Assembly (NCBI RefSeq): GCF_017311415.1
Contig: NZ_JAEKIS010000024.1
Location: forward strand, 1 to 54,313
Direction: 5' to 3'
DNA: 54,313 nt
DNA from: Salipiger abyssi
Lineage (GTDB): Bacteria > Pseudomonadota > Alphaproteobacteria > Rhodobacterales > Rhodobacteraceae
Under the pieces are notes generated by a model. That model made no database searches, was not told where the DNA came from, and saw nothing but the letters and a program-made list of their open reading frames with translations. Positions 8,654 to 52,807 of the stretch are shown in pieces. Position 1 is the stretch's first letter; the number at the start of each line of letters is the position of its first letter. A program made the position numbers and the translations under genes.

Positions 8654-8661
8654 GAGAGAAG

Positions 8662-35457: not shown

Positions 35458-35645
35458 GGGGCGTTGTTGTACAAGTCTGACGCCTCAGGATTCCCTTCGC
35501 GAACCCATGCTGTTAGCCGCATTCCATGAGCAACCCATCTCCCGCCCGCTATCGTACGACCAACTGGTCCAGCTACAACGCATCGCTGCGCAAGCGGGGG
35601 TCCCTGCTGATCTGGGTCGACGAAGACATCACTTGGCGCGCGCCC
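35458..35645 (+). mobile_element. Truncated IS5-family element, left end and transposase start
   Basis: GGGGCGTTGTTGTACAAG at 35458 resembles the left terminal repeat of IS1031/IS5-type elements. ATG 35526 starts MSNPSPARYRTTNW, continuing SSYNASLRKRGSLLIWVDED and ITWRA, the canonical N-terminus of these transposases. About 38 residues on, homology stops and ccdA sequence begins in another frame. The right part of the element is missing. The right junction is estimated. Confidence 0.75.
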
Positions 35646-36395: not shown

Positions 36396-36426
36396 TTGAA
36401 CCTCTAGTAGCTTTAGGAGTTAAGCC
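36396..36426 (+). promoter_or_regulatory. Divalent-metal MerR-type promoter of the fourth YkuD gene
   Basis: TTGAAC-N19-TAAGCC, spacer CTCTAGTAGCTTTAGGAGT. It belongs to the TTGAAS family shared with the boxes at 37664, 48693 and 49975, distinct from the TTGACC boxes of the copper genes. Confidence 0.7.
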
Positions 36427-36548: not shown

Positions 36549-37214
36549 ATGCTGACAAGACGACATTTCATCCAGACGACCACCGCGCTGTTTTCGGCAT
36601 CGATATCCAGCCCGCTCCTTGCAGACACGTGGCCTACCGATGCGCAGAAGGCAGCTTGGGACGCACAGGTTACACCTCCCGGCTACGACCCGGCCACGTC
36701 CAACCCTTGGGGCCTTCACCCTCGCTTCCTGCCACAGCGGGTCCTCGCGAAGGACGGACTTGTACCCGGTGATATCCATGTCGATGCTGTTGCGCGCTAT
36801 CTCTACCACATCGAAGAAGGCGGCACGGCGATGCGCTATGGCGTGGCGATCGCGCGCGGTAAACTTTACGAACCGGGCACCTATACGATCAAGCGCAAGG
36901 TCAGGTGGCCGCATTGGCAGCCGACACAAAACATGATCGACCGCGACCCAGAGCTTTACGCCGATATCGCTGACGGTATGGAACCCGGACCTGAAAACGC
37001 GCTCGGATCGCGAGCCCTCTATCTCTTCGTCGGCGACCGAGACACCTATCTAAGGATTCACGGGACACCGTATCCAAGAAGCATTGGCGGCCGTGCGAGT
37101 TCCGGCTGCGTCCGAATGGTCATGGCACACATCAATGATCTCTATCCCAACGTCGAGATTGGCTCGACGGCATTCCTGTACTCGGCGGAAGACAGCGTCA
37201 CCCCGAGAAGTTGA
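36549..37214 (+). CDS. YkuD-family L,D-transpeptidase, Tat-exported
   Basis: 221 residues from ATG 36549. Tat signal LTRRHFIQTTT to LLA; NPWGLHPRFLPQRVL; core with RIHGTP and SSGCVRM; ends YSAEDSVTPRS. Paralogue of the 27096 product, equal in length and highly similar. Its promoter is the divalent-metal MerR type, while the 27096 copy sits behind dsbB. The two copies therefore may serve different metal signals. Leader of about 120 bases. Confidence 0.9.
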   Translation: MLTRRHFIQTTTALFSASISSPLLADTWPTDAQKAAWDAQVTPPGYDPATSNPWGLHPRFLPQRVLAKDGLVPGDIHVDAVARYLYHIEEGGTAMRYGVAIARGKLYEPGTYTIKRKVRWPHWQPTQNMIDRDPELYADIADGMEPGPENALGSRALYLFVGDRDTYLRIHGTPYPRSIGGRASSGCVRMVMAHINDLYPNVEIGSTAFLYSAEDSVTPRS

Positions 37215-37261: not shown

Positions 37262-37534
37262 TCAGGACTGGCGCGAAGTGCAGATGGGGTTGCCACCTGC
37301 CGAGCGTAGCGGAACCAAGGTGTTTTCCACCGGACCGCTGTGTTCATACCAATAACAGCCATCCTCGGGACGAAGCCGCGCCGTGGTGAGATCCTGACCA
37401 GGCGCAGCAAGGGCAATGACGGCCTCGGGAACACTTCCCACTTCGTTGCGAGCGCCGCCGTCGTCCAGCGTTGGCACCGCGCAGCCAGCAAGCACCAATG
37501 TCGCTGCGATAATCGGCGCGTTTCGTTTCTGCAT
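37262..37534 (-). CDS. Small hypothetical lipoprotein
   Basis: 90 residues from ATG 37534, which has GAGG at five bases; longer frames lack a signal. Lipobox VLAGC at about residue 18. Mature part of about 73 residues with the stretch RLRPEDGCYWYEHSGPVENTL and a C-terminal cysteine (PICTSRQS); the two cysteines could form a disulfide. Divergent from the Zn/Cd/Pb ATPase. No family recognised. Confidence 0.7.
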   Translation of the reverse strand: MQKRNAPIIAATLVLAGCAVPTLDDGGARNEVGSVPEAVIALAAPGQDLTTARLRPEDGCYWYEHSGPVENTLVPLRSAGGNPICTSRQS

Positions 37535-37663: not shown

Positions 37664-37694
37664 TTGAAGCTCTAGTTACTGTAGGGGCTATGTC
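37664..37694 (+). promoter_or_regulatory. Divalent-metal MerR-type promoter of the Zn/Cd/Pb ATPase
   Basis: TTGAAG-N19-TATGTC with spacer CTCTAGTTACTGTAGGGGC, whose dyad CTCTAGTTACTGTAGGG is the best member of this box family. Start codon 33 bases after the -10. Confidence 0.78.
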
Positions 37695-37726: not shown

Positions 37727-40081
37727 ATGTCTTCCGACGGCAACCGCAACGATCACGGCCATCCGGGTGATCAAGAGCATTCTGACCCAAGAGGCAACTC
37801 CTGTTGCGACGCCAGCAAGGACGTCGCGTCCACGGCGCCAGCGCCGTCTGGCGGAAGGAGCTTTCAGGTCTCCGGGCTCGATTGCGCCGAAGAGGTGGCG
37901 ATCCTGAACCGGGTTGTCGGGCCGAAAGTGGGCGGAACCGAACACCTGGCATTCGACGTGATCAACGGGCGAATGACCATCCTCGATAGCGCCGAGAGGA
38001 TACCAGACGACGAAGTCACGCAGTTGGTCGCAACGACCGGCATGAGCGCCAAGCCATGGGATGCCGACAACGCAGCAGAGGACCAGGCGGCGCATCTGGC
38101 ACGTCAGAAGCGCTTTACCTCGTTGAGCGGCGGCTTCTGGGCGGCGGGATTCCTTTTTCACATTGTCGAGACCGGCATGGGCGGCGCGCTCGGGCTCTTT
38201 GCGGGCCATGGCGAGGTGCCTATGCCTATGGTGGAAGCAGGGATCTTCGCCGTCGCGATTCTTTTTGGCGTCTGGCTTGTCGCGCCCAAGGCCTGGTCTT
38301 CGGCGCGGAGGCTTAGCCCCGACATGAACCTGCTCATGGTGGTGGCCGTCGCGGGCGCCATCGGCCTCGGCGAGTTTTTTGAGGCCGCGACGGTCGCCTT
38401 CTTCTTCTCGCTTTCGCTTTATCTTGAGAGCTGGAGCGTGGGGCGGGCGCGTAATGCGGTTTCCGCGCTCCTCGATCTGGCGCCGCCAACGGCGCGGGTT
38501 CTTTACGACGACGGATCTGAATCCGACGTTCCGGCCGCGGCCGTGGCAGTCAATGCAAGGTTTATCGTGCGCGGCGGCGACCGGATCCCCCTCGACGGTG
38601 AGGTCGTGGACGGGGCAGGGGCCGTCGATCAGGCCCCAATTACTGGGGAAAGCGCGCTAGTGCCCAAGGAACCAGGCGACGAGGTCTATGCCGGCACGAT
38701 CAACGGCGAGGGCACACTGACGGTGCGGGCGACGAAGGCCGCCTCGGACACGGTGCTCGCGAAAATCATTCGCATGGTGGGCGATGCCCATGCCCGCCGC
38801 GCGCCGGTCGAACAGTGGGTGGCCAAGTTCGCGCGCATCTACACACCCATCGTGATGGCTTTGGCGATCGCCATCGCGCTGGTGCCGCCACTGCTGCTCG
38901 GCGGCGCCTGGGACTACTGGTTCTACAATGCTCTGGTCCTTCTGGTCATCGCATGTCCTTGCGCGCTGGTCATTTCTACGCCGGTCTCCATCGTGGCAGC
39001 GCTGACCGCGTCGGCACGGGCGGGGGTGCTCATCAAGGGCGGCGCCTATGTCGAGGCGCCGGGGCGGACCACGGCACTGGCGATGGACAAGACCGGGACG
39101 ATCACCATGGGCGAGCCTGAGGTGGCGGCGGTTCACCCACTGGTCGGCGTTTCCGCACGCGATCTCATGGCGCTGGCAGCAAGCCTGGAGGCGCGGTCTT
39201 CACACCCGCTGGCACGCGCCATCCTCTCGCGCGCCGAAGCCGATGGTGTTTCCGTGTCTGCCGCAGAGGACACCCGTACCGTGCCCGGGCGCGGTCTGGA
39301 AGGACGCGCCGACGGGCGCGCTATCTGGCTCGGCTCGGATCGCTTCGCCGAAGAGAAGGGGTTCGGCAATGCCATTCCGGCGGATCTGCGGGATCGGATC
39401 GAAGGGGCAGGGAGCACCCTCGTTGCCGTGGGTGACGAGACCGGCGTGACCGGCGTACTGGAGCTTCGCGACCGCATCCGCCCAGATGCAAAGGGGATCG
39501 TTGCGCGTCTGCATGCGCAGGGTGTGAAGACCATTGTGATGTTGACGGGCGACAACGAACGCACCGCGCGCGCGGTGGCAGCCGAAGTCGGCATCGACGA
39601 GGTGCGCGCCGAACTTTTGCCAGAAGACAAGGTGACGGCCATTGAGGAACTCGTCGAAAGCCACGACATGGTGGCGATGATCGGCGACGGTGTGAATGAC
39701 GCACCGGCCATGGCGCGGGCGCATTATGCCATCGCCATGGGCGCTGTCGGATCGGATGCCGCGATCGAGACGGCCGACATCGCGCTGATGACCGACGACA
39801 TCGGCAAGGTACCCTGGCTTATCGGCCATTCGCGCCGTGCCATGACGATCATCCACCAGAATATCGGCATATCGCTGGCGACCAAGGCGCTGTTCGTCGG
39901 GCTGACCGCGTTCGGTATGGCCTCAATGTGGGGCGCCATTGCTGCGGATGTAGGCGTGTCTCTGCTGGTGGTCGCCAACGCACTTCGGCTCCTGAACGGC
40001 CATCAGGTTGAGGCCGGGCCTTCAGGCGGAGAACCGGTGGGCGAGCAGATGGCGAAAGGAGCACTGGCGCACGGTCATTGA
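37727..40081 (+). CDS. zntA: Zn/Cd/Pb-exporting P1B-type ATPase (ZntA/CadA)
   Basis: 784 residues. N-terminus has a His/Asp stretch (NDHGHPGDQEH) and SCCD, then one HMA domain with SGLDC53AEEV, the D-C variant of ZntA/CadA rather than the CxxC of copper pumps. Pump core: C410PC in IACPCALVIS, phosphorylated D454, TGDN and [11 protein letters not shown]1B-2 class, exporting Zn2+, Cd2+ and Pb2+. Driven by a TTGAAG MerR-type promoter that matches the divalent-type regulator at 48834. Its last bases overlap the convergent small-protein gene. Confidence 0.94.
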   Translation: MSSDGNRNDHGHPGDQEHSDPRGNSCCDASKDVASTAPAPSGGRSFQVSGLDCAEEVAILNRVVGPKVGGTEHLAFDVINGRMTILDSAERIPDDEVTQLVATTGMSAKPWDADNAAEDQAAHLARQKRFTSLSGGFWAAGFLFHIVETGMGGALGLFAGHGEVPMPMVEAGIFAVAILFGVWLVAPKAWSSARRLSPDMNLLMVVAVAGAIGLGEFFEAATVAFFFSLSLYLESWSVGRARNAVSALLDLAPPTARVLYDDGSESDVPAAAVAVNARFIVRGGDRIPLDGEVVDGAGAVDQAPITGESALVPKEPGDEVYAGTINGEGTLTVRATKAASDTVLAKIIRMVGDAHARRAPVEQWVAKFARIYTPIVMALAIAIALVPPLLLGGAWDYWFYNALVLLVIACPCALVISTPVSIVAALTASARAGVLIKGGAYVEAPGRTTALAMDKTGTITMGEPEVAAVHPLVGVSARDLMALAASLEARSSHPLARAILSRAEADGVSVSAAEDTRTVPGRGLEGRADGRAIWLGSDRFAEEKGFGNAIPADLRDRIEGAGSTLVAVGDETGVTGVLELRDRIRPDAKGIVARLHAQGVKTIVMLTGDNERTARAVAAEVGIDEVRAELLPEDKVTAIEELVESHDMVAMIGDGVNDAPAMARAHYAIAMGAVGSDAAIETADIALMTDDIGKVPWLIGHSRRAMTIIHQNIGISLATKALFVGLTAFGMASMWGAIAADVGVSLLVVANALRLLNGHQVEAGPSGGEPVGEQMAKGALAHGH

Positions 40082-41000: not shown

Positions 41001-41168
41001 CTAGCCGAGAACCCGCGACAGCACGATGGTTGCAAACAGGGCGACAAGTCCGAAGGCGATCGCAGACGCTACCGCATATTGGAGGATATCCAGGTGATTC
41101 CCCCTCCTCCGTCGTGCCAGATAGCCACCCCAGATCGCGCCTCCGATAGCGCTCACGATCACAAGCAT
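41001..41168 (-). CDS. Very small membrane protein at the end of the lspA-lnt operon
   Basis: 55 residues: TM helix (about 1-18, MLVIVSAIGGAIWGGYLA), basic patch RRRRGN, second TM (about 32-52). GGAGG seven bases before the ATG and a one-base overlap with the lnt stop support it as a real coupled gene. No family recognised. Position suggests a role with the lipoprotein enzymes or ZIP transporter. Confidence 0.65.
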   Translation of the reverse strand: MLVIVSAIGGAIWGGYLARRRRGNHLDILQYAVASAIAFGLVALFATIVLSRVLG

Positions 41169-42739
41169 CAGGATACCTCCGTTCCAAAATGCCGCGCATC
41201 GGGATCTCGTCCGAGCAAACTGGCCAGCCAGCCGAAGACCCAGCACCCAAAAACAAGAACCAACAAGGTCCAGTCGCCGAACCGCGCATAGGGCGTTGGA
41301 GTACGCGCGCCCGGCAGGCCGGCATCAATGGTGCCTGTTTCCCCGGTATCAAGACGCGCGACGACATTTCCATTGGCGTCGATGATCGCGGATATCCCAG
41401 TGTTGGCCGCCCGGACCACGGGAAGTCCCTCCTCGACCGCGCGCATCCGCGCGGAGGCGAGGTGCTGCTCGGGTCCGATGCTGGTTCCGAACCAGGCATC
41501 ATTTGTGGCGTTGAATATCCAGTCGGGGCGGAAAAGGTCATCGACCACGTGGCCCGGAAAGATGATCTCGTAACAGATCGCCACCGCGACCAGAGGCGCG
41601 CCAGGGATCGCCAGCGTGCGCGGCCCTGGTCCCGGCGTGAAATCGCCCAACCCTTCGGTCAGCCGCTCGATGGGCAGCCAGCCTTTCAGGGGCACATATT
41701 CCCCGAACGGAACAAGATGATGTTTTGCATACCCCGTCAGAACCTCGCCGCTGCCGTCATAGGCCTGAACCGTGTTGAAATATCTGGTTCCCCCATCGCC
41801 CTCCACTCGGTCAGGCGCACCTGTCAGTAGGATCCTGCCGTCTGGCAAAGCTGCAGATATCCGCGCGCGTGCCGCAGCATCTTCGTCCAGAAAGCCGGGG
41901 AAGGCCGTTTCCGGCCAAAGCAGCAAATCGAAACGTCCGGGTTGCGCGGACAAGCCCAGGTATTTTTCCAAGGTTCGCTGGCGGCTGCCCGGTACCCACT
42001 TCTCGACTTGTGGCACATTGCCTTGGACGATGCGCAAAGCAACGTCTGTCGGCGGCATGTCCTGCCCTGACCGAAGCGCACCGCCAACCCAGAAACCCGC
42101 CACAGCAACGGCGAAGAGCACGAGAACAGGCGCGCGTCTCTTTGGCGCCGCCACAGTCAACACACCTGGCAATATGCCGATGAAGACCGTGAGAAAGCCC
42201 AAACCGTAGCTTCCGACCCAGGCGGCGGGTTGGCGCAGGGCGGCATAGTCGACAAGGGCATAAGCGGCAAGGTTCCAGGGAAACCCTGTCAGGACATGAC
42301 CCCGCAGCCATTCCGTGGCCACCCAGCAGGTTGCAAACAGCAGGCCCGCCGCAATGCCGCCGACAGCTCGGCGCTGCATGATGGCGGCAAAAAGCATCGC
42401 CGCCATGCCCGGGAAGATGGCAAGTCCGGCGGACAGACCCGCGACCGCCGGAATCGCCAGTGCGCCGAAACGTTCGGCATCGACGTAAAAGCTCTCGGCG
42501 ATCCAGGAAATTCCAATCCCGAATTGGCCCAGTCCGAAAGCCCAACCGACAAGGAAAGCGCGCGAGGTTGAGATGTTCCGGAGAACGATAAAGAGCACGG
42601 AGAAGGCGACAGGGACCGCGATGAGCCAAGAAAACGGCGGAAGAGTCAAAACCGTCAATCCGCCGGCAGCAAGGGCAAGACCCATGCGCTGGAACAGGTT
42701 CAGGTCCTCACTAACGAACTGCGGCAATCCCGGCTTCAT
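41168..42739 (-). CDS. lnt: Apolipoprotein N-acyltransferase Lnt
   Basis: 523 residues from ATG 42739, overlapping the lspA stop (ATGA). N-terminal TM region (about 15-215) and nitrilase-type catalytic domain (about 235-500) with WPETAFPGF (catalytic Glu), a Lys in the central region and the catalytic Cys in AICYEIIFPG. Adds the third acyl chain to lipoproteins. Complete and of normal length. It belongs to the 48656-41001 operon and duplicates an essential chromosomal function. Confidence 0.94.
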   Translation of the reverse strand: MKPGLPQFVSEDLNLFQRMGLALAAGGLTVLTLPPFSWLIAVPVAFSVLFIVLRNISTSRAFLVGWAFGLGQFGIGISWIAESFYVDAERFGALAIPAVAGLSAGLAIFPGMAAMLFAAIMQRRAVGGIAAGLLFATCWVATEWLRGHVLTGFPWNLAAYALVDYAALRQPAAWVGSYGLGFLTVFIGILPGVLTVAAPKRRAPVLVLFAVAVAGFWVGGALRSGQDMPPTDVALRIVQGNVPQVEKWVPGSRQRTLEKYLGLSAQPGRFDLLLWPETAFPGFLDEDAAARARISAALPDGRILLTGAPDRVEGDGGTRYFNTVQAYDGSGEVLTGYAKHHLVPFGEYVPLKGWLPIERLTEGLGDFTPGPGPRTLAIPGAPLVAVAICYEIIFPGHVVDDLFRPDWIFNATNDAWFGTSIGPEQHLASARMRAVEEGLPVVRAANTGISAIIDANGNVVARLDTGETGTIDAGLPGARTPTPYARFGDWTLLVLVFGCWVFGWLASLLGRDPDARHFGTEVS

Positions 42740-43209
42740 GAATCGGTCTGAAGTCGAGCGCCAACCCACGGCGCAATGAGCAGCAGCATCACGCCGCCAA
42801 CCACAAAAACATCGGCCATGTTGAAGGCAGGCCAGTGCGCCGTCCCGATGTAGAAATCGAGGAAATCCGTCACCGCACGATAGCGCAGGCGGTCCAGAAT
42901 ATTGCCGAGTGCACCGCCGATGATCGCACCATAGGCAATGGCCTCGACCCGGCTGCTGGTACGGACCAGCATGAACGCCAGCCAGACGCAGATGCCAAGC
43001 GCCAGTAAGACAAGGCTCCACCACGGCGCGCCGCCGAGAAGCCCGAAGGTCACTCCGTCATTGCGCAGGTAGATGAGATTGAAGCCGGGAAAGACCGATA
43101 CGCCGGAACTAAGAACAGTCGCATTGGACACAACGATTGCCTTCGTTGCCTGATCGACAAGAAAGGCGATCAGCGCAGCAAGCAGACCGACGAAGAGGCA
43201 AGTTCTCAT
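42736..43209 (-). CDS. lspA: Lipoprotein signal peptidase LspA
   Basis: 157 residues with four TM helices. Catalytic aspartates are visible in GALGNILDRLR and FNMADVFVVGG. It removes the signal peptide of diacylated prolipoproteins. LspA homologues often occur beside Pb/Zn/Cd pumps in resistance islands, which fits here. Four bases after the ZIP gene stop and coupled to lnt. Confidence 0.94.
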   Translation of the reverse strand: MRTCLFVGLLAALIAFLVDQATKAIVVSNATVLSSGVSVFPGFNLIYLRNDGVTFGLLGGAPWWSLVLLALGICVWLAFMLVRTSSRVEAIAYGAIIGGALGNILDRLRYRAVTDFLDFYIGTAHWPAFNMADVFVVGGVMLLLIAPWVGARLQTDS

Positions 43210-43213
43210 CAGC

Positions 43214-43996
43214 TTATCCCAGCCAGACGTCGAGGAACAACATGATCACAAGACCAACGGCGAGGCCGAGCGTCGCCCTGTTCTGATGGCCGGATCGGTG
43301 GGTTTCCGGAATGATCTCGTGGCTGATGACGTAGAGCATCGCACCTGCTGCGAAGGCGAGACCCCAGGGCAGCAGCGGTTGCGAAAGACTGATAATCCCT
43401 GCGCCGAGAAGTCCACCGACGGGCTCGACGAGACCGGTCAGAGCGGCGATGCCCCAGGCGCGAAGCCTGGAATAGCCCTCGCCGAGCAACGAAACCGCCA
43501 CCGCCAGACCTTCGGGGGCATTCTGTAATCCAATACCGATCGCAAGTGGCAACCCGCCCGACAAACCGTCAGCCCCGAACCCGACGCCGACGGCAAGCCC
43601 TTCGGGAAAATTGTGGATAGTGATCGCGATGATGAAAAGCCAGACGCGCCGCAGCGATGCGGCGTCGGGACCTTCCCGCCCCGTCTTGAAATGTTCATGC
43701 GGTAGCCGTTCGTTCATCAGAGCGATCGCGCCCATGCCAAGCAGGATCGCAACACATACGATGGCCGCCGGGAGAGCACCGTTGTCGAACTGTCCTTCAG
43801 CTGCGTCGAGAGCCGGGATGATCAGCGAGAAGAACGAAGCCGCGAGCATGACACCCGCCGCGAAGCCAAGCAGCAGATCGCGCGTGGCCCGGGACGGGAT
43901 GCGCCCAAAAAGAACGGGGACCGCCCCGACCGCGGTCAGCGATCCGGCGGCCAGGCTTCCAAGAAAGCCAAGCGCTATGGGGGAGAGGGGTTCCAA
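43214..43996 (-). CDS. ZIP-family divalent metal transporter
   Basis: 260 residues from TTG 43996; the preceding codons contain a stop (TAA) two codons upstream, and there is no ATG before the first TM. Eight TM helices; the metal-binding helices carry IAITIHNFPEGLAVG (TM4) and IGLQNAPEGLAVAVS (TM5), where the first His-Asn and second Asn plus Glu are typical of GufA-type ZIPs. His is absent from the TM5 HxxxE, replaced by N. The protein takes up or releases Zn/Mn-type cations. In an efflux operon it might be an importer balanced against the pumps. Confidence 0.88.
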   Translation of the reverse strand: MEPLSPIALGFLGSLAAGSLTAVGAVPVLFGRIPSRATRDLLLGFAAGVMLAASFFSLIIPALDAAEGQFDNGALPAAIVCVAILLGMGAIALMNERLPHEHFKTGREGPDAASLRRVWLFIIAITIHNFPEGLAVGVGFGADGLSGGLPLAIGIGLQNAPEGLAVAVSLLGEGYSRLRAWGIAALTGLVEPVGGLLGAGIISLSQPLLPWGLAFAAGAMLYVISHEIIPETHRSGHQNRATLGLAVGLVIMLFLDVWLG

Positions 43997-44018
43997 TTGT
44001 TAAGGTTCTGCCGCGAGT

Positions 44019-44477
44019 TCAGTCAGGAGCCGAGTAGCTGGTGTAGACCTCGGTCGATCCGTCTTCGTGGATCAGGAAGACATCGTAAGCCTCCCGGTCG
44101 TCCTCCGGTCCCATGCCGGGCGACCCGTAGGGCATTCCCGGCACCGCCAGGCCTACCGCGTCTGGCCGGTCCTCCAGCAGGCGTTGGATGTCAGCCGCCG
44201 GCACGTGGCCCTCGATCACATAGCCGTCGACCAAAGCCGTATGGCAGGAGACCATGCGCTGCGGCACGCCATTGTCGAGTTTGAAGCGCACAAGAGATCC
44301 TCCGAACATGTCCTCGCCCATCGGCGCGAAGCCATTCTCCTCGAGGTGCTTCATCCAGGACAGGCAACAGCCGCAGCCGTTTGTCTTCCGGACGTCGATC
44401 TGAATCGCCTCTGCGACGGCCTGCGCCGCAGGAAGCAAGGCAAATGCGATGGCAAGGGCGGGAGTAAATCGTTTCAT
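44019..44477 (-). CDS. DUF411 metal-binding periplasmic protein
   Basis: 152 residues: signal peptide (about 1-22) and DUF411 domain with the motif KTNGCGCCLSW (about 31-41), followed by HTALVDGYVIEGHVPA. DUF411 proteins (CopG-like) bind copper or other soft metals through the CxCC and His residues. Three bases after the M23 gene in the 11-gene operon. Confidence 0.85.
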   Translation of the reverse strand: MKRFTPALAIAFALLPAAQAVAEAIQIDVRKTNGCGCCLSWMKHLEENGFAPMGEDMFGGSLVRFKLDNGVPQRMVSCHTALVDGYVIEGHVPAADIQRLLEDRPDAVGLAVPGMPYGSPGMGPEDDREAYDVFLIHEDGSTEVYTSYSAPD

Positions 44478-44480
44478 GGA

Positions 44481-45854
44481 TCAAAGCCTTTCGGTTGTCG
44501 TCTGTGCAAATTCGCTGGCGAGCCTCTCAGCAAGAAGTGAACGCGCCTCACGCAGTCGCTCAAGCGCGGCCGTGTCGTCCGCTTCACGCTCGGCCGCCTC
44601 TGCCAATCGGTCGTCAGAGAGAGGGTCGGTTGGGCGACCGTCCACCAGCACTTCGTAATGTAGGTTGGGGCCTGTCGCGGTACCCGTCGCACCGACCCGC
44701 CCGATCATATCTCCGGCCATCACGCGTTGCCCTTGTGTGAGCCCGTCCGGTACGGCGCTCAGATGCGCATAGCGCGTCAGGGTGTCGGAGCCATGAGCGA
44801 TCTCGACGACCCGGCCATACCCACCGCGTCGGCCGATGAAGCTAACGCGGCCCGGCGCCGTCGCCTGTACCGGCGTGCCGCGCGCCGCCGCGAAGTCGAC
44901 TCCTGTGTGCATCCGTACATTGCCGTAGACCGGATGGGTGCGGCGCCCGAACACAGAACTCAGCCGTGCACCTTCGACCGGTTGCGCAAACACGCGCAGG
45001 ACTTCTCCGTCGACATAGATCGTCGCTTGGCCGCTGCCGTCGTTCGGCCAGACGATTTCATAGACCGAGCCATCGATATCCAGTGCGGCAAAGGCAAGCT
45101 CGGGCTGACCAATCCTCTTGTTCCCGTCTCGGGCCTCGCGCCAAAGGAGGCGCATCGTCTCGCCACCCGCAAGATCACGACGGAAATCCACGGTGCCGCC
45201 CAGCATCTGCGCCAGGTCCACCGCAAAACGGGCGGGGATGTCTGCCGTGTTCAGGGCGGCGAAAATCGAGCTCTCGATCACCGCCTCGCCGGCGAAAGTC
45301 ACCAATTCGGGATCCGGGTCCAACACGCGGGCGGCAAGCTGTTCGCCGAAGACCGCCTCTATCCGGACACCGTCTTCGACGGCGAGCTCTACACGACGCG
45401 GGTTGTCGTCCGTTGTGGAAACCACCGTAATGATGTGACCCGGACGCAGACGGCGCAGATCGTATTCCGTGCCAATCGCCAAGGCGATTTCGGCGCGATC
45501 CGAAGCATCCAGCCCCGCATCGGAAAGGACCGCATCAAGCGTCTCGCCGGACGCAATCTCCCGCGACCAGGTGACCAGCGGGGGCTCGATAGATGGCAAG
45601 GAGGTATCAGCGGGGGAAACGGTCAGGAGCGGCCGGGGTCTGAACTCGAATGCGATATCCGCCTGGGAGAGTGTAGGGCGGACCGAATTGGTTTCGGTAA
45701 TCCGAGGCGGCGCAAGCGGATTGGGAGTCCAGAGGGTCGCTTCAGCAATCGCAGGGGGCACCGGTTCTTTGGACAGAACGCCAGAGATGGCGATGGCGGT
45801 CACCGAAAATGCGCCTGCGACCGCAACGGCCGCCAAGACAGTTCTTATCTTCAT
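44481..45854 (-). CDS. M23-family peptidoglycan endopeptidase
   Basis: 457 residues. N-terminal membrane anchor or signal (about 5-27), an OapA/LysM-like region with SGETLDAVLSDAGL (about 100-115), and a C-terminal LytM/M23 domain with zinc ligands in RMHTGVDFAA (H and D) and GPNLHYEVLVDG (H). It cuts cross-bridges in the cell wall. Coupled by ATGA to the SCO gene upstream. With four YkuD genes in the window it adds a second wall-remodelling activity. Confidence 0.9.
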   Translation of the reverse strand: MKIRTVLAAVAVAGAFSVTAIAISGVLSKEPVPPAIAEATLWTPNPLAPPRITETNSVRPTLSQADIAFEFRPRPLLTVSPADTSLPSIEPPLVTWSREIASGETLDAVLSDAGLDASDRAEIALAIGTEYDLRRLRPGHIITVVSTTDDNPRRVELAVEDGVRIEAVFGEQLAARVLDPDPELVTFAGEAVIESSIFAALNTADIPARFAVDLAQMLGGTVDFRRDLAGGETMRLLWREARDGNKRIGQPELAFAALDIDGSVYEIVWPNDGSGQATIYVDGEVLRVFAQPVEGARLSSVFGRRTHPVYGNVRMHTGVDFAAARGTPVQATAPGRVSFIGRRGGYGRVVEIAHGSDTLTRYAHLSAVPDGLTQGQRVMAGDMIGRVGATGTATGPNLHYEVLVDGRPTDPLSDDRLAEAAEREADDTAALERLREARSLLAERLASEFAQTTTERL

Positions 45855-46477
45855 GTTGCCCCCTCTACGTCTTCTGTCAGTGCGCGCTGGATCTTCGGCA
45901 CCGCGAATTCTCTTTGCTCGTGATAGTCGATCATGGTGACGAGCTCACCCTCGGCATCGAACAGGAATACGCTTGCCGTATGGTTCATCGTATAGCCGCC
46001 GCCCTCAGTCGGGACGCGCTCAAATGAGGCACGAAACCCTTCTGCAGCGCGGGCAATTTGGTCTTCCGGCCCCGTCCAGCCACGAATGACCGGATGAAAA
46101 TAGCCGACATATTCGGCCATGGCCTCGACCGTGTCCCGCTCCGGGTCGACCGTGATGAAGACCACGTTCATCTCTGATGCTTCGTCGCCCAGTTCCTCAA
46201 GCCAGCCGGAAATATCCGATAGGGTCGTCGGGCAGACGTCCGGGCAGTAGGTGAACCCGAAAAACACCATTGTGGGACGACCGATCAGGTTGCCAGGCCC
46301 TACCTCATTTTCCTCGTGGTCGGTCAGCCGGAACTCCATCGCCGATAGGGGCAGGGGCCGCTGCCCTTTTGGTTCAGGCGCACCGGGCCCGTCCACCCGC
46401 CACCAGCCCACGAAGAGCGTCAGGCCAAGAACGCCGGCACCGGCTGCGCCGTATAGAAGGAGCTGCCGACGTTGCAT
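45851..46477 (-). CDS. SCO1/SenC-family copper chaperone
   Basis: 208 residues: N-terminal TM anchor (about 7-25) and a thioredoxin-like fold with the copper-binding YCPDVCP (about 77-83) and distant His in NHTASVFLF. SCO proteins deliver copper to, or reduce the cysteines of, the CuA site of cytochrome oxidase and related sites. Overlaps PCuAC upstream and M23 downstream. A second SCO gene starts the operon. Confidence 0.93.
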   Translation of the reverse strand: MQRRQLLLYGAAGAGVLGLTLFVGWWRVDGPGAPEPKGQRPLPLSAMEFRLTDHEENEVGPGNLIGRPTMVFFGFTYCPDVCPTTLSDISGWLEELGDEASEMNVVFITVDPERDTVEAMAEYVGYFHPVIRGWTGPEDQIARAAEGFRASFERVPTEGGGYTMNHTASVFLFDAEGELVTMIDYHEQREFAVPKIQRALTEDVEGAT

Positions 46478-46947
46478 CAGCCCTCCGGTCCACGCGCGGC
46501 GATTCCGAGGATTGGGACCTCGACCGTCACCTTGCCGCCATCCGAGAAGGTCAGTGTCAGCGGGAAATTCTCGCCTTCGGTCATCGGCTCTTGCAGCTTC
46601 ATGAGCATGGCGTGCAACCCGCCCGGCTCCAATGCCACGCTTTGGCCGGGCTCAATCGTGATCTCGCCTGCAGGCGCCATGGAACTGACGCCATCGGAGT
46701 TGGTTTTCGACTCATGGATCTCGGGCATCATTGCCAGCGGTGTCGCAAGTCCGGTCAGCGTAACGGCGTCTTCACCCGTGTTGCGCACGGTCATATAGGC
46801 GGCACCTGGCCTGTTGACGCCGATCGAGGCGCGGGACCACGCATTCTCGACCACGACATCCTCCGAACCGGCCAGTGCGGGGGCCGACAGCCCTGCAACC
46901 GTCAAAAGCACGGCCAATGCATTGGTATATCTCAACTTCTTCACCAC
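46477..46947 (-). CDS. PCuAC-type periplasmic copper chaperone
   Basis: 156 residues from GTG 46947, chosen for AGGAG six bases upstream; longer frames have no signal. Signal peptide to PALA, then a cupredoxin-like DUF461 domain with the H-M-H-M copper site: IHESKTNSDGVSSM and GGLHAMLM. PCuAC binds Cu(I) and hands it to SCO or oxidase CuA. Here it lies directly between DsbA-like and SCO genes. Confidence 0.92.
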   Translation of the reverse strand: MVKKLRYTNALAVLLTVAGLSAPALAGSEDVVVENAWSRASIGVNRPGAAYMTVRNTGEDAVTLTGLATPLAMMPEIHESKTNSDGVSSMAPAGEITIEPGQSVALEPGGLHAMLMKLQEPMTEGENFPLTLTFSDGGKVTVEVPILGIAARGPEG

Positions 46948-46969
46948 TCGTTTCTCCTGCCTCCGCAAA

Positions 46970-47629
46970 TCAGCTTTGGCTTGCCGCAACTTCCACTGCC
47001 ACCAGCCTCTGCAATTCGGCCTCACCGAACGGATCGAGAGGCTTGCCGTTCACGAAGAACGTGGGCGTTTGGCGGACCCCGACTGTCTCGACATCGGCGC
47101 GGTCCTGGTTGAGCACCGCCACAACACCGGGGGCCAGCATCTGTGTCCGGGCAGCTTCGACATCCAGACCTCCGCTTGCTGCAATCTCAAGGATCAATCC
47201 GGGTGCCGGGGTCCCGTGAGACGCCCATCTGGGCTGCTCTCGCAAGACTGCCTCGAGCACAGGTTCAAACACGTCCTGCATGCGCGCCGCCTCGAGCACA
47301 CGGATCGCTTCTACCGACGCCTCGCCGTGAAAAGGCGTATAGCGGATTACAACGCGCACCGCGTCTCCGTGCTCCGCCATGATATCCTCGACGACCGGAT
47401 AGAAAGCGCGGCATGCCTCGCAGGCCGGGTCGAAGAATTCAACGATGGTTACGGGCGCATCCTCGGGCCCGAGGATCGGGGAATAGGGTCGGATCAGCGC
47501 GTCGGCCATTTCAGGGTCGATGGGATCGGACGCGGCAATCGGGTCGGGGCGGGTGGCATACCAGGCGGCACCGCCGAAACCGGCGACCCCGAGCGCGAGA
47601 ACGGACAGGATGAGGCCGCGTCGTTTCAT
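46970..47629 (-). CDS. DsbA-family thioredoxin-like protein
   Basis: 219 residues from ATG 47629. N-terminal anchor/signal (about 5-25) and a DsbA/Com1-like thioredoxin fold with active site CEAC in FFDPACEACRAF (about 73-76) and cis-proline loop QTPTFF. The ATG overlaps the DsbB stop (ATGA), so these two form an oxidising pair. Substrates could be SCO and PCuAC. CEAC is atypical; most DsbA proteins have CPxC. Confidence 0.88.
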   Translation of the reverse strand: MKRRGLILSVLALGVAGFGGAAWYATRPDPIAASDPIDPEMADALIRPYSPILGPEDAPVTIVEFFDPACEACRAFYPVVEDIMAEHGDAVRVVIRYTPFHGEASVEAIRVLEAARMQDVFEPVLEAVLREQPRWASHGTPAPGLILEIAASGGLDVEAARTQMLAPGVVAVLNQDRADVETVGVRQTPTFFVNGKPLDPFGEAELQRLVAVEVAASQS

Positions 47630-48048
47630 TTTTGTGTTTCCTTCAGTGAGAGAGCCGACAGCAGACCGATCATCGCGAAGGCGACGAGCGCCATCAAAGG
47701 AATCGGAATGCCGAAGACCAGTTGATTGTCGTCGGTACAGGATGGGCCGGTCGCCGTGCAGGGCTGGATACGCTCGGGGATAACGCCGACATAGAGGCCC
47801 AAGTGCCAAAGCGCGACGGCGGCACCGCCCAAAGCCAGCGCGATCCCGTAGCGACCCACGCGCCGATCCTGCCACCACAGCCCAAGCCCGAGGATGATGG
47901 CCAAGGGGAACATGAAGGCACGCTGGAACCAGCAGAGCACGCAAGGTGTCTGCCCCAGAACCTCGCCGATGAAGAGCACGGCAAGCGACGCGGTGAGCGC
48001 GATGATCCAGGCCAGGCCAAGGGCCGTCTCTCCGGAAAGTCGGGTCAT
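47626..48048 (-). CDS. DsbB/BdbC-type disulfide-forming membrane protein
   Basis: 140 residues with four TM helices; first pair CVLC in TPCVLCWFQRAFMF (about 36-39) and a second periplasmic pair in QPCTATGPSC (about 97-107). Shorter BdbC-like form. It transfers electrons from the DsbA-like partner to quinone. Five bases after the SCO gene at 48656-48054 and coupled to dsbA. Confidence 0.9.
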   Translation of the reverse strand: MTRLSGETALGLAWIIALTASLAVLFIGEVLGQTPCVLCWFQRAFMFPLAIILGLGLWWQDRRVGRYGIALALGGAAVALWHLGLYVGVIPERIQPCTATGPSCTDDNQLVFGIPIPLMALVAFAMIGLLSALSLKETQK

Positions 48049-48053
48049 GACGA

Positions 48054-48656
48054 TCAGATCCTCTGTCTCAGATCGGCGAGGATCTCTTCGGCGGGCGTGC
48101 CGTAGGGCCAGGAGTCCGCGAAGCCTGCTTGCGTGTCGAAAAGGAAAAGATGCGACGTGTGACCCATCGTGTATCCGCCCGGCGCAGTCGCCTGCTCGAT
48201 CCGCTCAAAGAATATCGGAAAGGTTTCGGATGTCGCGGCGATCTGCTCCGGTGTACCGGTCAGCCCGATGATCCCTGCGTCGAACAGGGGCACATACTCG
48301 GCAAGTGCAGTCGGCGTATCCCGCTCCGGATCAATCGTTATGAAAATCGGCTGAACCATTGCTGCCTCATCGCCCAGGCCCTCCATCACGGCCGCGACTT
48401 CGGACAGTGTTGTCGGACAGACGTCGGGGCAATTGGTGAAGCCAAAGAAGACCAGCATCCAGCGCCCTGCGAAATCTTCGTCCGTTTGGACCATGCCGCG
48501 ATGATCGGTCAGTTCGAAATCAGCAAGAAACGGTGGTTCACTCTCGGTGCGGGCAAGATCGGCACGGTAGTCGGACCATAGCAACAGCCAGATGAAAACG
48601 AACGCCGCCGCGCCCGCCAACACCCACAATACCTTCTGAAGACCTGAAAGCCTCAC
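48054..48656 (-). CDS. SCO1/SenC-family protein, first gene of the 11-gene operon
   Basis: 200 residues from GTG 48656. TM anchor (about 8-27), thioredoxin-like fold with NCPDVCP and the distant His in GHTSHLFLFD. Only moderately similar to the SCO at 46477, so an old duplication. Its leader carries the divalent-metal MerR-type promoter, from which ten more genes follow on the same strand with gaps of 22 bases or less. Confidence 0.92.
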   Translation of the reverse strand: MRLSGLQKVLWVLAGAAAFVFIWLLLWSDYRADLARTESEPPFLADFELTDHRGMVQTDEDFAGRWMLVFFGFTNCPDVCPTTLSEVAAVMEGLGDEAAMVQPIFITIDPERDTPTALAEYVPLFDAGIIGLTGTPEQIAATSETFPIFFERIEQATAPGGYTMGHTSHLFLFDTQAGFADSWPYGTPAEEILADLRQRI

Positions 48657-48692
48657 GCCGCTCCGCCCGAACCTGATTCTATATTTTGTGTG

Positions 48693-48723
48693 CGTTTACA
48701 TCCTCTAGCTACTGTAGGTTCAA
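48693..48723 (-). promoter_or_regulatory. Divalent-metal MerR-type promoter of the 11-gene operon
   Basis: Minus strand TTGAAC-N19-TAAACG with spacer CTACAGTAGCTAGAGGATG. Same box family as 36396, 37664 and 49975; it is the only promoter-like signal ahead of 48656-41001. Confidence 0.75.
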
Positions 48724-48833: not shown

Positions 48834-49262
48834 ATGCTGACGATTGGGACGCTGGCGAAGAAGACCGGAACAAAGGTGCAGACCATCCGGTATTACGAGC
48901 AGATCGGACTTATGCCTGAGCCCGGCAGGACCGAGGGGGGCCAACGACGCTATGGCGACGCCGAACTCGACCGCTTGTCATTCGTCCGGCACGCACGGCA
49001 ACTGGGGTTCTCGTTGGACGCGATCCGTGAGCTCCTCGATCTCAGCGATCATCCGGGAAAGTCCTGCGCTGAGGCGGATGCAATAGCCCGTCGGCAACTC
49101 AAACAGGTCGAGCAACGATTGGCGCGGCTCGAGGCGCTGCGGACGGAATTGAAGCGGATGGTGCATGAGTGCAGCGGCGGACAGACTTCTGATTGCCGTG
49201 TGCTCGAGGTACTGCGCGACCATTCCGAATGCCTGACCGACCATGAAGAGATCGGCGCCTGA
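48834..49262 (+). CDS. MerR-family divalent metal sensor (CadR/PbrR/ZntR-like)
   Basis: 142 residues from ATG 48834, with GGGAG five bases upstream. Winged helix with TIRYYEQIGL, long dimerisation helix, C78 in HPGKSCAEA (Cys here marks +2-metal sensors), and the metal loop C113-SGGQTSD-C121 with an extra C133. It would recognise Zn, Cd or Pb. It is divergent from the SCO operon and placed among four TTGAAS-type promoters that are its likely targets. Exact metal not resolved. Confidence 0.9.
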   Translation: MLTIGTLAKKTGTKVQTIRYYEQIGLMPEPGRTEGGQRRYGDAELDRLSFVRHARQLGFSLDAIRELLDLSDHPGKSCAEADAIARRQLKQVEQRLARLEALRTELKRMVHECSGGQTSDCRVLEVLRDHSECLTDHEEIGA

Positions 49263-49344: not shown

Positions 49345-49965
49345 ATGGCGGAGCAGAGAAACGCAACGGAAAGACGCACACTCTGGATCGTGCTGGGTCT
49401 CAACATCGGGCTGGCAGTCGCTTTCTTCGCCTCGGGCGCATTCGGCGAGTCAAGCGCGCTTATCGCCAATGGCCTCGACAATCTGTCGGACAGTTTCGTC
49501 TACGCGATCAGCCTCTTCGCGCTGTCCCGCTCCGCCAAGTGGAAGCGCGGAGCGGCGAACGTTTCGGGCGGCCTGCTGATCCTCTTCGCCCTTGGAATCC
49601 TGTATGACGCGTGGCGCCGCTACGTCGGCGGATCGGATCCTCTTGGCACGATCATGATTGTCATGGCGCTGGTAGCGGCGGCCATCAACGCACTTTGCGT
49701 CTGGCTGCTGGCACGGCTTCGCGATCCAGACGTAAACATCCGAGCGGCGAATACGTTCAGCTGGAACGACTTCGCGGCCAATCTCGGAATCGTCGTCGCA
49801 GGCGGGCTCGTAGCCTGGCTCGGAACGAATTGGCCGGACCTTGTCGTGGGCGTGATTGTCGCCGGCATCGCGGCCTGGGGTGGCGTCGGAATCCTGAGAG
49901 ACGCGCATGGTGAACACCACAAGGCGGTGCACAATGACGATCAGGTAACCAAGGACTCGGCCTGA
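49345..49965 (+). CDS. Short cation diffusion facilitator-like transporter
   Basis: 206 residues, TM domain only. TM2 carries LDNLSDSF with the DxxxD pair; TM5 reads FSWNDF, so the usual His is replaced while Asp is kept. There is no C-terminal cytoplasmic domain, only a His/Asp tail (HGEHHKAVHNDDQ). Transport of Zn, Cd or Co-type ions is likely. It starts 82 bases after the regulator gene, without a clear own promoter. Confidence 0.85.
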   Translation: MAEQRNATERRTLWIVLGLNIGLAVAFFASGAFGESSALIANGLDNLSDSFVYAISLFALSRSAKWKRGAANVSGGLLILFALGILYDAWRRYVGGSDPLGTIMIVMALVAAAINALCVWLLARLRDPDVNIRAANTFSWNDFAANLGIVVAGGLVAWLGTNWPDLVVGVIVAGIAAWGGVGILRDAHGEHHKAVHNDDQVTKDSA

Positions 49966-49974
49966 AATCGGGGC

Positions 49975-50005
49975 TTGAAGCTACAGTGACTGTAGCAACT
50001 ACATA
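49975..50005 (+). promoter_or_regulatory. Divalent-metal MerR-type promoter of the transglutaminase-CDF genes
   Basis: TTGAAG-N19-TACATA, spacer CTACAGTGACTGTAGCAAC with the perfect-armed dyad CTACAGTGACTGTAG. Start codon 29 bases after the -10. Confidence 0.78.
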
Positions 50006-50034: not shown

Positions 50035-50598
50035 GTGAACCCCGCCGACCCTCATTTGGCCAAAACCCGGCTGCTGGATTTTGACGCGACCTCAATTGCA
50101 AAACTGATCGAGGAGCGCGGCTGGGCAGACCTTCCCAGCGACGACCGAATTGGGGCCATCTACGATTTCGTCAGGAACGAGATTACCTTCGGCTACAACC
50201 GCGCCGACGACATTCCGGCGTCCGAGGTCCTCGCAGATGGCCACGGGCAGTGCAACACCAAGGGCACGCTCCTCATGGCCCTGCTGCGTGGCGTGGGAGT
50301 TCGCTGCCGACTGCACGGGTTCACAATCCACAAGGCGCTTCAGAGAGGCGTCGTTCCGGAACTCGTCTATCCCCTCGCGCCGTCCGAAATCCTCCACTCC
50401 TGGGTAGAGGTGGACTTGGGCGACGGATGGGTCAATCACCGCCAGAACTTCGGATTTGTGCGCGACTTGCTCTATCGCCACGTCATCCGTCACTGGATGA
50501 ATGCCAGGGTTCGCCGCATCCGCCGCGGAATCTTGCCGCCGGTCCCCGGATTCGATCGGCCGAACCACCGCCATGAGGAGACGAACCGTGCCGCATGA
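50035..50598 (+). CDS. Transglutaminase-like cysteine protease-fold protein
   Basis: 187 residues from GTG 50035; AGGAGG six bases upstream decides against the earlier GTG 50011. Transglutaminase-core fold with catalytic Cys in GHGQCNTKG (about 79) and His in LHSWVEVDLGDGW, where the Asp follows. No signal peptide, so cytoplasmic. Operonic with the CDF gene, whose start lies inside the end of this gene. Substrate unknown; a metal-linked proteolytic or amidase role would be inference. Confidence 0.82.
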   Translation: MNPADPHLAKTRLLDFDATSIAKLIEERGWADLPSDDRIGAIYDFVRNEITFGYNRADDIPASEVLADGHGQCNTKGTLLMALLRGVGVRCRLHGFTIHKALQRGVVPELVYPLAPSEILHSWVEVDLGDGWVNHRQNFGFVRDLLYRHVIRHWMNARVRRIRRGILPPVPGFDRPNHRHEETNRAA

Positions 50599-51553
50599 TC
50601 ACGGCCACGCCCACATCGATCCTCAATCCGGTGATCGTCGCGTCTCCATCGCCATCTGGGCCAACGGCCTCCTGACGGTCGCGCAGATCGTCGGCGGGAT
50701 CCTTTCCGGCAGCCTCGCGCTGATCGCGGATGCCCTCCACAATTTCTCGGACATGGCGTCGCTGGTGATCGCCTTCTTCGCGCGTAAGATCGCTCGCCGC
50801 CCGGCGGACAAGCGCATGACCTTCGGCTATGGGCGGGTAGAAATCGTCGCAGCGCTCATCAACTACACGACACTTATCCTGATCGGCTTCTACCTGATCT
50901 ACGAGGGTGGCATGCGCATGATCGACCCACCAGAGGTACAGGGCTGGACGGTGGTGATCCTGGGCGGTGTGGCACTGGTCGTCGACACGTTGACGGCGCT
51001 GCTCACCTATTCGATGCAGAAAGGCAGCGTGAACATCCGTGCGCTCTTCCTGCACAACCTATCGGACGCTTTGGCCTCCGTGGCGGTCATCATCGGCGGC
51101 TCGCTCATCCTCCTCTACAACATGCGGTGGGTCGACCCGGCGATCACCATCGGCATCGCTCTCTACATCCTCTACCTCGCATTTACCGAGATCGGCGGTC
51201 CGATTCGGACGCTGATGCTCGGCAGTCCACCGGACATCGATAATGAAACCGTCGTTCAGGCGATGCGGGGTGTGGATGGTGTCGCGGACGTTCATCACGT
51301 GCATCTGTGGCAGATGCAGGAGCACGAGGCGGCTCTGGACTGCCACGTCGTGCTGACAGCGGACGGCTGGGGTCAAATCGAAAAGATCAAGGCCGCGATC
51401 AAGGACCGGCTGAAGGACGATTTCAGCATCGGTCATTCGAGTCTGGAATTTGAGCACGAAGACCGCGCACACGAAAACGCTGACCTTTACGGTCACGGCA
51501 AACCGGAAAAAGAGGAGGAAAACCATGTTCACCGAGACACTGACAGCTCATGA
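50588..51553 (+). CDS. Cation diffusion facilitator (CzcD/ZitB-like)
   Basis: 321 residues from GTG 50588, which has AGGAGA six bases upstream; it overlaps the transglutaminase gene by 11 bases. His-rich N-terminus (PHDHGHAHID), six TMs with the metal site intact: HNFSD in TM2 and HNLSD in TM5. Cytoplasmic domain has DVHHVHLW, and the tail is HVHRD. Zn/Cd/Co efflux by proton antiport is expected. Start codon context and full metal site contrast with the CDF at 1689-709. Confidence 0.92.
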   Translation: MPHDHGHAHIDPQSGDRRVSIAIWANGLLTVAQIVGGILSGSLALIADALHNFSDMASLVIAFFARKIARRPADKRMTFGYGRVEIVAALINYTTLILIGFYLIYEGGMRMIDPPEVQGWTVVILGGVALVVDTLTALLTYSMQKGSVNIRALFLHNLSDALASVAVIIGGSLILLYNMRWVDPAITIGIALYILYLAFTEIGGPIRTLMLGSPPDIDNETVVQAMRGVDGVADVHHVHLWQMQEHEAALDCHVVLTADGWGQIEKIKAAIKDRLKDDFSIGHSSLEFEHEDRAHENADLYGHGKPEKEEENHVHRDTDSS

Positions 51554-51950: not shown

Positions 51951-52807
51951 CTAGGTCATGTTGACAAATGGCGGATCCAGAGACGGATCGACGTGATGTC
52001 AATGAAGCCGAGGAAGCTTTCCGCCGTCTTGTCGTAGCGGGTCGCGACACGCCTGGCGTTCTTGAGCTTGTTGAAGCAGCGTTCGACCAGATTCCGCAGG
52101 CGATACAGCGAGCGATCGACACCAATCCGCTTCTTGCGGGACTTGCGCATCGGTATCACGGGCAGGACGTTGCGCGCCTCCATGCCTCCTCTGATCTTGT
52201 CTGCATCGTAGCCGCGATCCGCGAGCAGCACGCTCGGGCGGGGCAGATTATCCGCCATCACCAGATTGAAGCCGAGATAGTCCGACGTCTGGCCTGGCGT
52301 GATCTCTGTCCTCATGGGAAGCCCGTGTGCATTGACGAGGAGGTGGATCTTGGTCGTAAAGCCACCTCGAGAACGGCCGAAACCCTGTCGTGGAGTCCCC
52401 CTTTAGCGCCCGCTGCCTGATGGTGGGCGCGGATCACGGTGCTGTCGATCATTTGCAGGGCGCTTGGCACGGCTCCGCTCTGGTTCAGAGCATCCATTAT
52501 GTCCTCCCAGAGGCCCGCCAGTGTCCAGCGCCGGAACTGTCGGTAAACGCTTGACCATTTGCCGAACTCGCCAGGTAGGTCCCGCCATGGCGCCCCGGTT
52601 CGGGCAATCCAGAAAATCCCATCAAGGACGAGGCGGTGGTTGGTGGCTTTGCGTCCGTTCGGGGCGCGGGCGGCGAGGATGAAGCGCTCAAAGAACGCCC
52701 ATTCCTCGTCCGATATAAGGTTTCGTGCCAAGCTGGTCTCCATCGCAGATGCCAGCTTGAATCATGCCCTACGCCCGAGGGGAATCCCTTTTGTCAACAC
52801 GACCTAG
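51951..52807. mobile_element. Complete IS427-group (IS5 family) insertion sequence
   Basis: Terminal inverted repeats GTCATGTTGACAAATGG (51955) and, inward from 52803, GTCGTGTTGACAAAAGG, flanked by the direct repeat CTAG at 51951-51954 and 52804-52807. The 849-bp element holds a transposase in two overlapping frames. The right end reads into the TerB-domain gene. Insertion at CTAG is typical for this group. Confidence 0.88.
51956..52743 (-). CDS. IS427-group transposase, two frames joined by -1 frameshift
   Basis: First frame (52743-52312) starts METSLARNLISDEEW and contains the first DDE aspartate in MIDSTVIRAH. Second frame (ends 51956) has the next aspartate in LADRGYDAD and the glutamate in NLVERCFNKLK. 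The second frame lies -1 to the first and they overlap around 52379-52385, where GGGTTTC could be the slip site. This split layout is normal in the group, so the element may be active. Confidence 0.88.

Follow-up and report, generated by a model that had tools for sequence, protein, structure and literature searches.

An operon of copper-chaperone, disulfide, wall and lipoprotein genes in a mobile Rhodobacterales metal island: a candidate second supply of envelope enzymes

The 54,313-nucleotide contig NZ_JAEKIS010000024.1 of Salipiger abyssi (assembly GCF_017311415.1), hereafter the window, carries an eleven-gene operon that joins copper-chaperone, disulfide, cell-wall, ZIP transporter and lipoprotein-maturation genes on the minus strand, from 48656 down to 41001. 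The operon's predicted regulatory box recurs before three further units, and all four lie in a mobile island of metal genes that spans some 50 kb. We propose, as an explanation whose chances we put barely above even, that it is switched by a CadR-type regulator and supplies second envelope enzymes replacing those blocked by copper, zinc, cadmium or lead. More tentatively, and with a confidence that falls short of even, we suggest a general mode of metal resistance in which a full second set of the poisoned envelope machinery would be switched on, spread on plasmids and assembled independently in several phyla.

The list of enzymes in the island matches the published copper targets, which are lipoprotein acylation, L,D-transpeptidases, disulfides and cytochrome c assembly, and we read the operon as a probable metal-induced second enzyme supply. 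Cytochrome c assembly is reportedly a key target of copper, to go by the title of a 2015 study by Durand. In sections of two other reports, copper blocks lipoprotein acylation and mimics Lgt depletion, the copper-tolerance locus cutE being lnt itself (PMC6538781), and it inhibits L,D-transpeptidases and disrupts disulfides (PMC6593411). Among the papers that our literature searches listed, none describes the operon or the combined gene set; individual cases of lgt or lspA have been published. An initial annotation made from the sequence alone had called the combination unfamiliar. Copper genes behind a divalent-metal MerR regulator are less odd than was supposed, since CadR of Rubrivivax gelatinosus governs copper tolerance genes (PMC11591864).

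Gene content and predicted control of the operon

Reading from its predicted promoter, the operon encodes a first SCO family protein (48054-48656, RefSeq start 48620; Pfam SCO1-SenC, 5.4e-49; CPDVCP motif), a DsbB-like disulfide oxidoreductase (47626-48048; Pfam DsbB, 1.5e-13; CVLC), a DsbA-like thioredoxin (46970-47629; Thioredoxin_4; CEAC), the PCu(A)C copper chaperone PCuAC (46477-46944), a second SCO family protein (45851-46477; CPDVCP), an M23 peptidase (44481-45854), a DUF411 protein (44019-44477; CGCC), a ZIP metal transporter (43214-43996), the signal peptidase II LspA (42736-43209), the apolipoprotein N-acyltransferase Lnt (41168-42739) and a 55-residue membrane protein (41001-41168). 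The initial annotation had named these eleven genes in this order on one strand; all are present, and all pass curated Pfam cut-offs except the 55-residue protein, which has no Pfam match. The tight spacing it described also stands (intergenic distances, in operon order, of 5, -4, 25, -1, -4, 3, 22, 4, -4 and -1), but its ceiling of 22 bases is exceeded by the 25-base gap that results if PCuAC starts at 46944, as in RefSeq.

LspA and Lnt, each one of two copies in the genome, also pass their NCBIfam equivalog cut-offs (TIGR00077, 112.8 against 73.95; TIGR00546, 301.6 against 132.9). LspA keeps the catalytic aspartate motifs NILDR and FNMAD, and Lnt, aligned to 5n6m, keeps the motifs of the Glu-Lys-Cys triad (WPE, KHHLVPFGEY and CYE). 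The M23 protein, recognised by family models, keeps HxxxD as HTGVD, but HxH reads NLH, both in the window and in six of nine relatives inspected (the other three gave no match to the search pattern), and it may be an activator rather than a cutting enzyme. The 55-residue protein could be a partner of Lnt, because its position downstream of Lnt recurs both in relatives of the window type and in the shuffled architecture described below (L105 and L107, 50-53% identity).

Between 40000 and 49400 a search for sigma-70-like sites found none, and the seven terminator-like matches in that interval, all on the operon strand, fall below the 9.5 expected by chance. The eleven-gene block is likely a single transcription unit of ten conserved genes and one small one.

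Divergent to the operon lies a plus-strand gene for a CadR-type regulator of the MerR family (48834-49262). Its nearest solved structures are CadR (6jgv) and 5gpe, a PbrR protein, and its three cysteines, at 78, 113 and 121, align with the positions near 77, 112 and 119 by which CadR/PbrR kin are recognised. Before the operon we predict, by pattern, a CadR-type promoter on the minus strand (48695-48723), with TTGAAC and TAAACG flanking a long 19-bp spacer that holds an inverted repeat. The same predicted box recurs on the plus strand before an L,D-transpeptidase gene (36396-36424), before a ZntA-type ATPase gene and a divergent lipoprotein gene (37664-37692), and before transglutaminase and cation diffusion facilitator (CDF) genes (49975-50003). 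These four sites compare with none in 200 simulated sequences, and a stricter half-site pattern gives three sites in the window against 0.06 expected. As a prediction, then, the earlier assignment of the operon to a divalent-metal MerR-type promoter and not to a CueR box is borne out; a CueR-like box lies elsewhere, at 19611, before a copper ATPase gene (19722-22232), and the CueR regulator itself is encoded at 22245-22643 (plus strand).

Conservation and the extra copies of Lnt and Lgt

We scanned species genomes with the ZIP protein and retained the best 80 loci, 66 of which have enough flanking sequence. These relatives are close kin, as all were found through the ZIP gene, and part of the shared arrangement must be put down to descent. 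Even so, the arrangement is conserved beyond what chance would give: 52 of the 66 loci show SCO-DsbB-Trx-PCuAC-SCO-M23-DUF411-ZIP-LspA-Lnt without a break, and a divergent MerR gene is present in 58. LspA is retained in 62, Lnt in 56 and M23 in 63, as against 63-65 for SCO and PCuAC. Of the predicted boxes, that of the operon persists in 55 of 59 relatives and that of the ZntA gene in 33 of 44. Purifying selection acts on each of the ten genes, with median pairwise dN/dS values from 0.06 (ZIP) to 0.21 (LspA); Lnt, at 0.19, is with LspA slightly less constrained than the other operon genes. Two copies of the ZIP gene occur about 36 kb apart on one contig of Jannaschia rubra (L172, L173).

The window is identical or near-identical, over 10 kb, to plasmids of Dinoroseobacter, Salipiger, Sagittula, Phaeobacter and Actibacterium, and 142 plasmid records match it, ten of them at 99% or more. 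Dinoroseobacter shibae DFL 12, a marine strain used in the laboratory, has the block twice, on pDSHI01 and on NC_009957 (pDSHI03). For a different, 102-kb plasmid of D. shibae, part of one report gives unchanged copper, cobalt and zinc resistance and slightly higher silver resistance (PMC9426580). On more distant plasmids the families are retained and the order is lost. No ZIP, M23 or Lnt was seen in the 40 kb inspected of a Labrenzia plasmid, and a Pelagibacterium plasmid carries several separate gene groups, with no Lnt in its 40 kb. In two Rhodobacterales genomes (L105 and L107) Lnt adjoins an L,D-transpeptidase, LspA-DsbB-Trx lies about 6 kb off and ZIP is absent, although most of the window's families are there. 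That a similar gene set persists in a shuffled arrangement points to shared function rather than to a shared ancestor alone.

Second copies of Lnt go with the operon. Nine of 121 genomes of the order Rhodobacterales carry two Lnt. Each of these nine has just one of its copies next to operon genes; in one case (L099) that copy sits on a 3.4-kb contig showing only M23, DUF411, ZIP and LspA. The other copy lies away from operon genes, save for a ZIP-like match of 34% near one of them. None of four single-copy Lnt inspected lies beside operon genes. Counted per genome, nine of nine against none of four gives P = 0.0014; counted per copy, nine of nine against none of 13 gives P = 2e-6, a figure that is partly circular because the extra copy is defined by its neighbours, which the per-genome count avoids. 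In a tree, moreover, twelve Lnt of islands (three plasmid-borne) group in a single clade, apart from 13 housekeeping Lnt (SH-aLRT 100). Outside the order we fetched three plasmid Lnt, two of which lie in metal islands by annotation. One, on a 41-kb Psychrobacter plasmid (L203, 1-15850), is 29% identical and stands with CadR, a metal ATPase, CcmFGHI, DUF411, a CDF protein and a CHAP-domain protein, and this joining of Lnt, CadR and CcmFGHI is apparently independent of the one in the window.

The window also encodes the prolipoprotein diacylglyceryl transferase Lgt (30034-30954, plus strand; RefSeq and Pfam), one of three copies in the genome, with its core motifs kept and a PF01790 score of 232.7 against a cut-off of 24.9; a copper-translocating P-type ATPase gene adjoins it (31033-33378, plus strand; RefSeq and family search). 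At least two full-length Lgt occur in five of 149 genomes of the order, namely G000 and four of the ten checked genomes with a second Lgt match. In four of the five, a copy lies close to a P1B ATPase or a multicopper oxidase, against none of 20 single-copy genomes (P = 4e-4); in the fifth, G011, neither copy does. The extra Lgt, that of the window included, form one group (SH-aLRT 93; five rows, two of which, L048 and L054, are identical proteins) apart from the plasmid Lgt of Sphingobium, Pseudorhizobium, Paraburkholderia and Moraxella.

For plasmid lgt of other genera we picked 15 plasmids among 60 records listed of 473, leaving out Rhodobacterales, Martelella, Roseibium, Lactococcus, Listeria, repeats of a genus except two Enterococcus, and chromosome-sized records. 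In ten of the 15, spanning four phyla, a P1B ATPase or a multicopper oxidase is encoded no more than about 9 kb from lgt. The marker is a multicopper oxidase only in L034 and a P1B ATPase only in L032, L035, L037 and L041; L033 and L036 also supplied marker queries, so that their own match is trivial, but their annotation shows the genes. The five plasmids with lgt away from the markers belong to Phocaeicola, whose record has no annotation, Leptolyngbya, Streptomyces, Microbacterium, where lgt stands among his and trp genes, and Cnuibacter.

We considered and rejected the idea that the window encodes a metal-proof, cysteine-poor Lgt. It has four cysteines, against two to four in eleven main or single copies, a comparison that covers frames of 295-308 residues and ignores longer ones, which run from stop to stop or are wrong. 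An extra dose of enzyme under metal control is thereby favoured over metal-proof variants. Two further arrangements were seen around plasmid lgt. On a Paraburkholderia plasmid (L037, 6804-9831), lgt is immediately preceded by an additional SecY gene, which itself follows a MerR gene; a metal ATPase lies roughly 3 kb away. On Sphingobium plasmids L034 and L201, lgt or lnt is surrounded by ArsR and MBL-fold genes and by YeeE/YedE sulfur genes, an association that may hint at stress from sulfide or persulfide; in L034, mer genes and a multicopper oxidase are close by as well.

The surrounding island and comparable systems

Around the operon the island holds lgt, four L,D-transpeptidases, Dsb and Scs-type genes, CcmF, CcmG, CcmH and CcmI, several P-type ATPases including copper ATPases, CDF proteins, two multicopper oxidases, four cytochrome c genes and CueR. 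Together with LspA and Lnt of the operon, its lgt makes up a further copy of the entire lipoprotein pathway. The window makes up 1.04% of the genome's bases and holds, besides one LspA of two, one Lnt of two and one Lgt of three, four of its 15 L,D-transpeptidases, an enrichment with P = 1.5e-5. These four, all on the plus strand, lie at 36549-37214 (YkuD, with an SSGCVR motif), 27096-27761, 24458-25039 and 13788-14306, the last three found by family search. On the same strand, CcmF, CcmG (DsbE family), CcmH and CcmI for cytochrome c assembly occupy 6653-10846 (family search). The thiol-disulfide genes comprise a DsbD/ScsB-like reductase (10875-13004, minus strand; family search) and, on the plus strand, a DsbA family protein with the Pfam ScsC_N domain (18595-19326), a second DsbB (26541-27053; family search) and a CcdA-like protein (35633-36355; RefSeq and family search).

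Flanking the predicted ZntA box are the plus-strand gene of a metal P-type ATPase (37727-40081; RefSeq and family search), whose ZntA subtype is our reading, and, divergent to it, the minus-strand gene of a 90-residue predicted lipoprotein (37262-37534; lipobox LAGC) with seven relatives at 45-69% identity. Beyond the regulator, on the plus strand, follow a cation transporter (49345-49965; RefSeq), a transglutaminase-like protein (50035-50598; family search) and a cation diffusion facilitator (50588-51553; RefSeq). At the right edge of the window, two overlapping minus-strand frames (51956-52743) resemble a transposase split over two frames.

Several known systems share parts of this gene set. 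The pbr lead-resistance operon of Cupriavidus metallidurans, whose PbrC is an LspA homologue, has, as does the window, a MerR regulator of the CadR/PbrR type, a metal ATPase and an extra signal peptidase II. To our knowledge it lacks Lnt, Lgt, SCO, PCuAC, Dsb, M23 and L,D-transpeptidase. By gene content, the window's operon falls outside pbr: LspA and the MerR type are common and the rest differs. A cadR-CDF-lspA module on gammaproteobacterial plasmids also has cadR, a cation transporter and lspA in a row, and adjoins an ISPpu12-family transposase in L199 and an unnamed one in L200; however, it consists of three genes only, and its lspA is 36-37% identical to that of the window. Scs (suppressor of copper sensitivity) comprises copper-linked thiol-disulfide proteins, of which the ScsC_N-domain DsbA and the DsbD-like protein are reminiscent, but it concerns disulfides only.

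Links between metal and lipoprotein maturation are also on record, in those parts of the reports that bear on them. In Mesorhizobium, a PbrC-like LspA and a CcdA are zinc-induced (PMC3668242), and copper islands with lgt have been described (PMC4511184, PMC6256500). The mobile Enterococcus copper island tcrYAZB-cueO includes a prolipoprotein diacylglyceryl transferase, as does the window, and its authors proposed oxidative stress as the reason for lgt (PMC4511184); it differs in being Gram-positive, and the 18.5 kb inspected of L033 contain no pair of LspA and Lnt. In E. coli, cutE (lnt) and the NlpE-Cpx copper response likewise tie copper tolerance to lipoprotein maturation (PMC6538781), but through the host's own genes and stress response and not through a mobile second set.

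Weighing the explanations

How might the operon act? We infer the induction, the identity of the metal and each functional step as follows. The MerR protein encoded at 48834 would sense a thiophilic metal and switch on the four same-box units, that is the operon, the L,D-transpeptidase, the ZntA-type pump and the transglutaminase-CDF pair. Pumps, CDF proteins and SCO, PCuAC and DUF411 would lower periplasmic metal or pass it on, and DsbA and DsbB would restore disulfides. The extra LspA and Lnt, with the Lgt elsewhere on the island, would give more capacity to finish lipoproteins whose cysteine is blocked by metal, and the extra L,D-transpeptidases and M23 would maintain wall remodelling. The suggestion of the initial annotation that the operon may be a single envelope metal-handling and repair unit is partly supported: its conserved order, its one conserved box, purifying selection and the lack of a sigma-70-like site all fit, and the direction seems right. 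The boundary was nevertheless drawn too narrowly, because the operon is, as far as the predicted boxes indicate, one of four such units in an island that also holds Lgt, L,D-transpeptidases, CcmFGHI and Scs-type genes.

Several observations weigh against the proposal of a metal-switched second enzyme supply. An extra enzyme is no obvious cure for a blocked substrate cysteine, and the Ccm genes may have no role beyond the assembly of cytochromes that the island itself encodes. Lgt has no CadR-type box, and the predicted box before the L,D-transpeptidase is found in 12 of 36 relatives, all twelve being one sequence. Across the 66 operon loci with their 10-kb flanks, CcmF occurs in eight, any L,D-transpeptidase in 39 and Lgt in none, although in the window lgt lies 12 kb from the operon and 10-kb flanks would miss it at such a distance. 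A second full-length Lgt is found in only two of the nine two-Lnt genomes (G000 and G100), so that the full Lgt-LspA-Lnt set is not constant. Finally, two or more lgt matches occur in 27 of 120 Pseudomonadota genomes; we fetched 20 second-lgt regions from 18 of the 26 genomes other than G000, taking both copies in two, and only one of the 20 lies near a P1B ATPase or multicopper oxidase (L095, a multicopper oxidase). Ten of these regions went unmatched by the Lgt queries used and are distant paralogues, and one region (L079) has SCO- and PCuAC-like matches. Set against ten of 15 plasmids, this restricts the metal link to plasmid lgt and the Rhodobacterales island and does not extend it to second lgt genes generally.

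The last result would also be expected of an ordinary metal-resistance island, in which tolerance comes from pumps, CDF proteins and chaperones, and transposition has brought in the envelope enzymes as passengers, whether useful or neutral. The several P-type ATPases, the CDF proteins, the two multicopper oxidases and CueR agree with it, and heavy-metal detoxification genes are named on such plasmids in part of PMC5513947. Passengers, however, would hardly explain purifying selection on LspA and Lnt, even if somewhat weaker than on the other genes, an Lnt clade confined to islands, one predicted box kept before the operon in nearly all relatives, or most of the same families rejoined in a different order; we regard this explanation as unlikely, though as the likeliest of the rivals. 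Less probable still is that LspA, Lnt and Lgt serve to mature a metal-induced lipoprotein of the island, as PbrC in the Cupriavidus lead operon suggests, with the 90-residue protein (37262-37534) as client. This protein has a clear lipobox and shares its box region with the ZntA-type pump, seven relatives keep it, and PbrC is described, in an excerpt of PMC3668242, as a signal peptidase-like protein in a metal operon. But the lipoprotein pattern finds, among 54 stop-free island proteins, one clear lipoprotein and one further match inside a twin-arginine-like signal. A single client needs no whole second pathway, the enzymes can hardly be reserved for cargo of the island, and all three are also encoded elsewhere in the genome.

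A slightly fainter prospect is that SCO, PCuAC, DUF411, Dsb and Ccm rebuild cytochromes and oxidases after zinc or cadmium displaces copper, the lipoprotein and wall genes being secondary. The two SCO, PCuAC, the four cytochrome c genes and CcmFGHI would be at home in such cuproenzyme assembly; LspA, Lnt and M23 are left unexplained, yet they are kept in the operon loci almost as often as SCO and PCuAC. We give very little credit to the notion that the wall and lipoprotein enzymes help to build the plasmid's type IV secretion system. Although 100 of the 142 matching plasmid records are typed conjugative, 40 are typed non-mobilizable, a contig of 2.1 Mb (L111) carries one copy of the operon, and the enzymes are encoded among metal genes, downstream of a predicted metal box.

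If evolution has indeed gathered the same envelope enzymes into metal islands time and again, the island would be a natural read-out of the disputed lethal periplasmic targets of copper and related metals. It would also explain why lspA and lgt recur on metal plasmids, and would offer a new view of plasmids that are common in marine Rhodobacterales.

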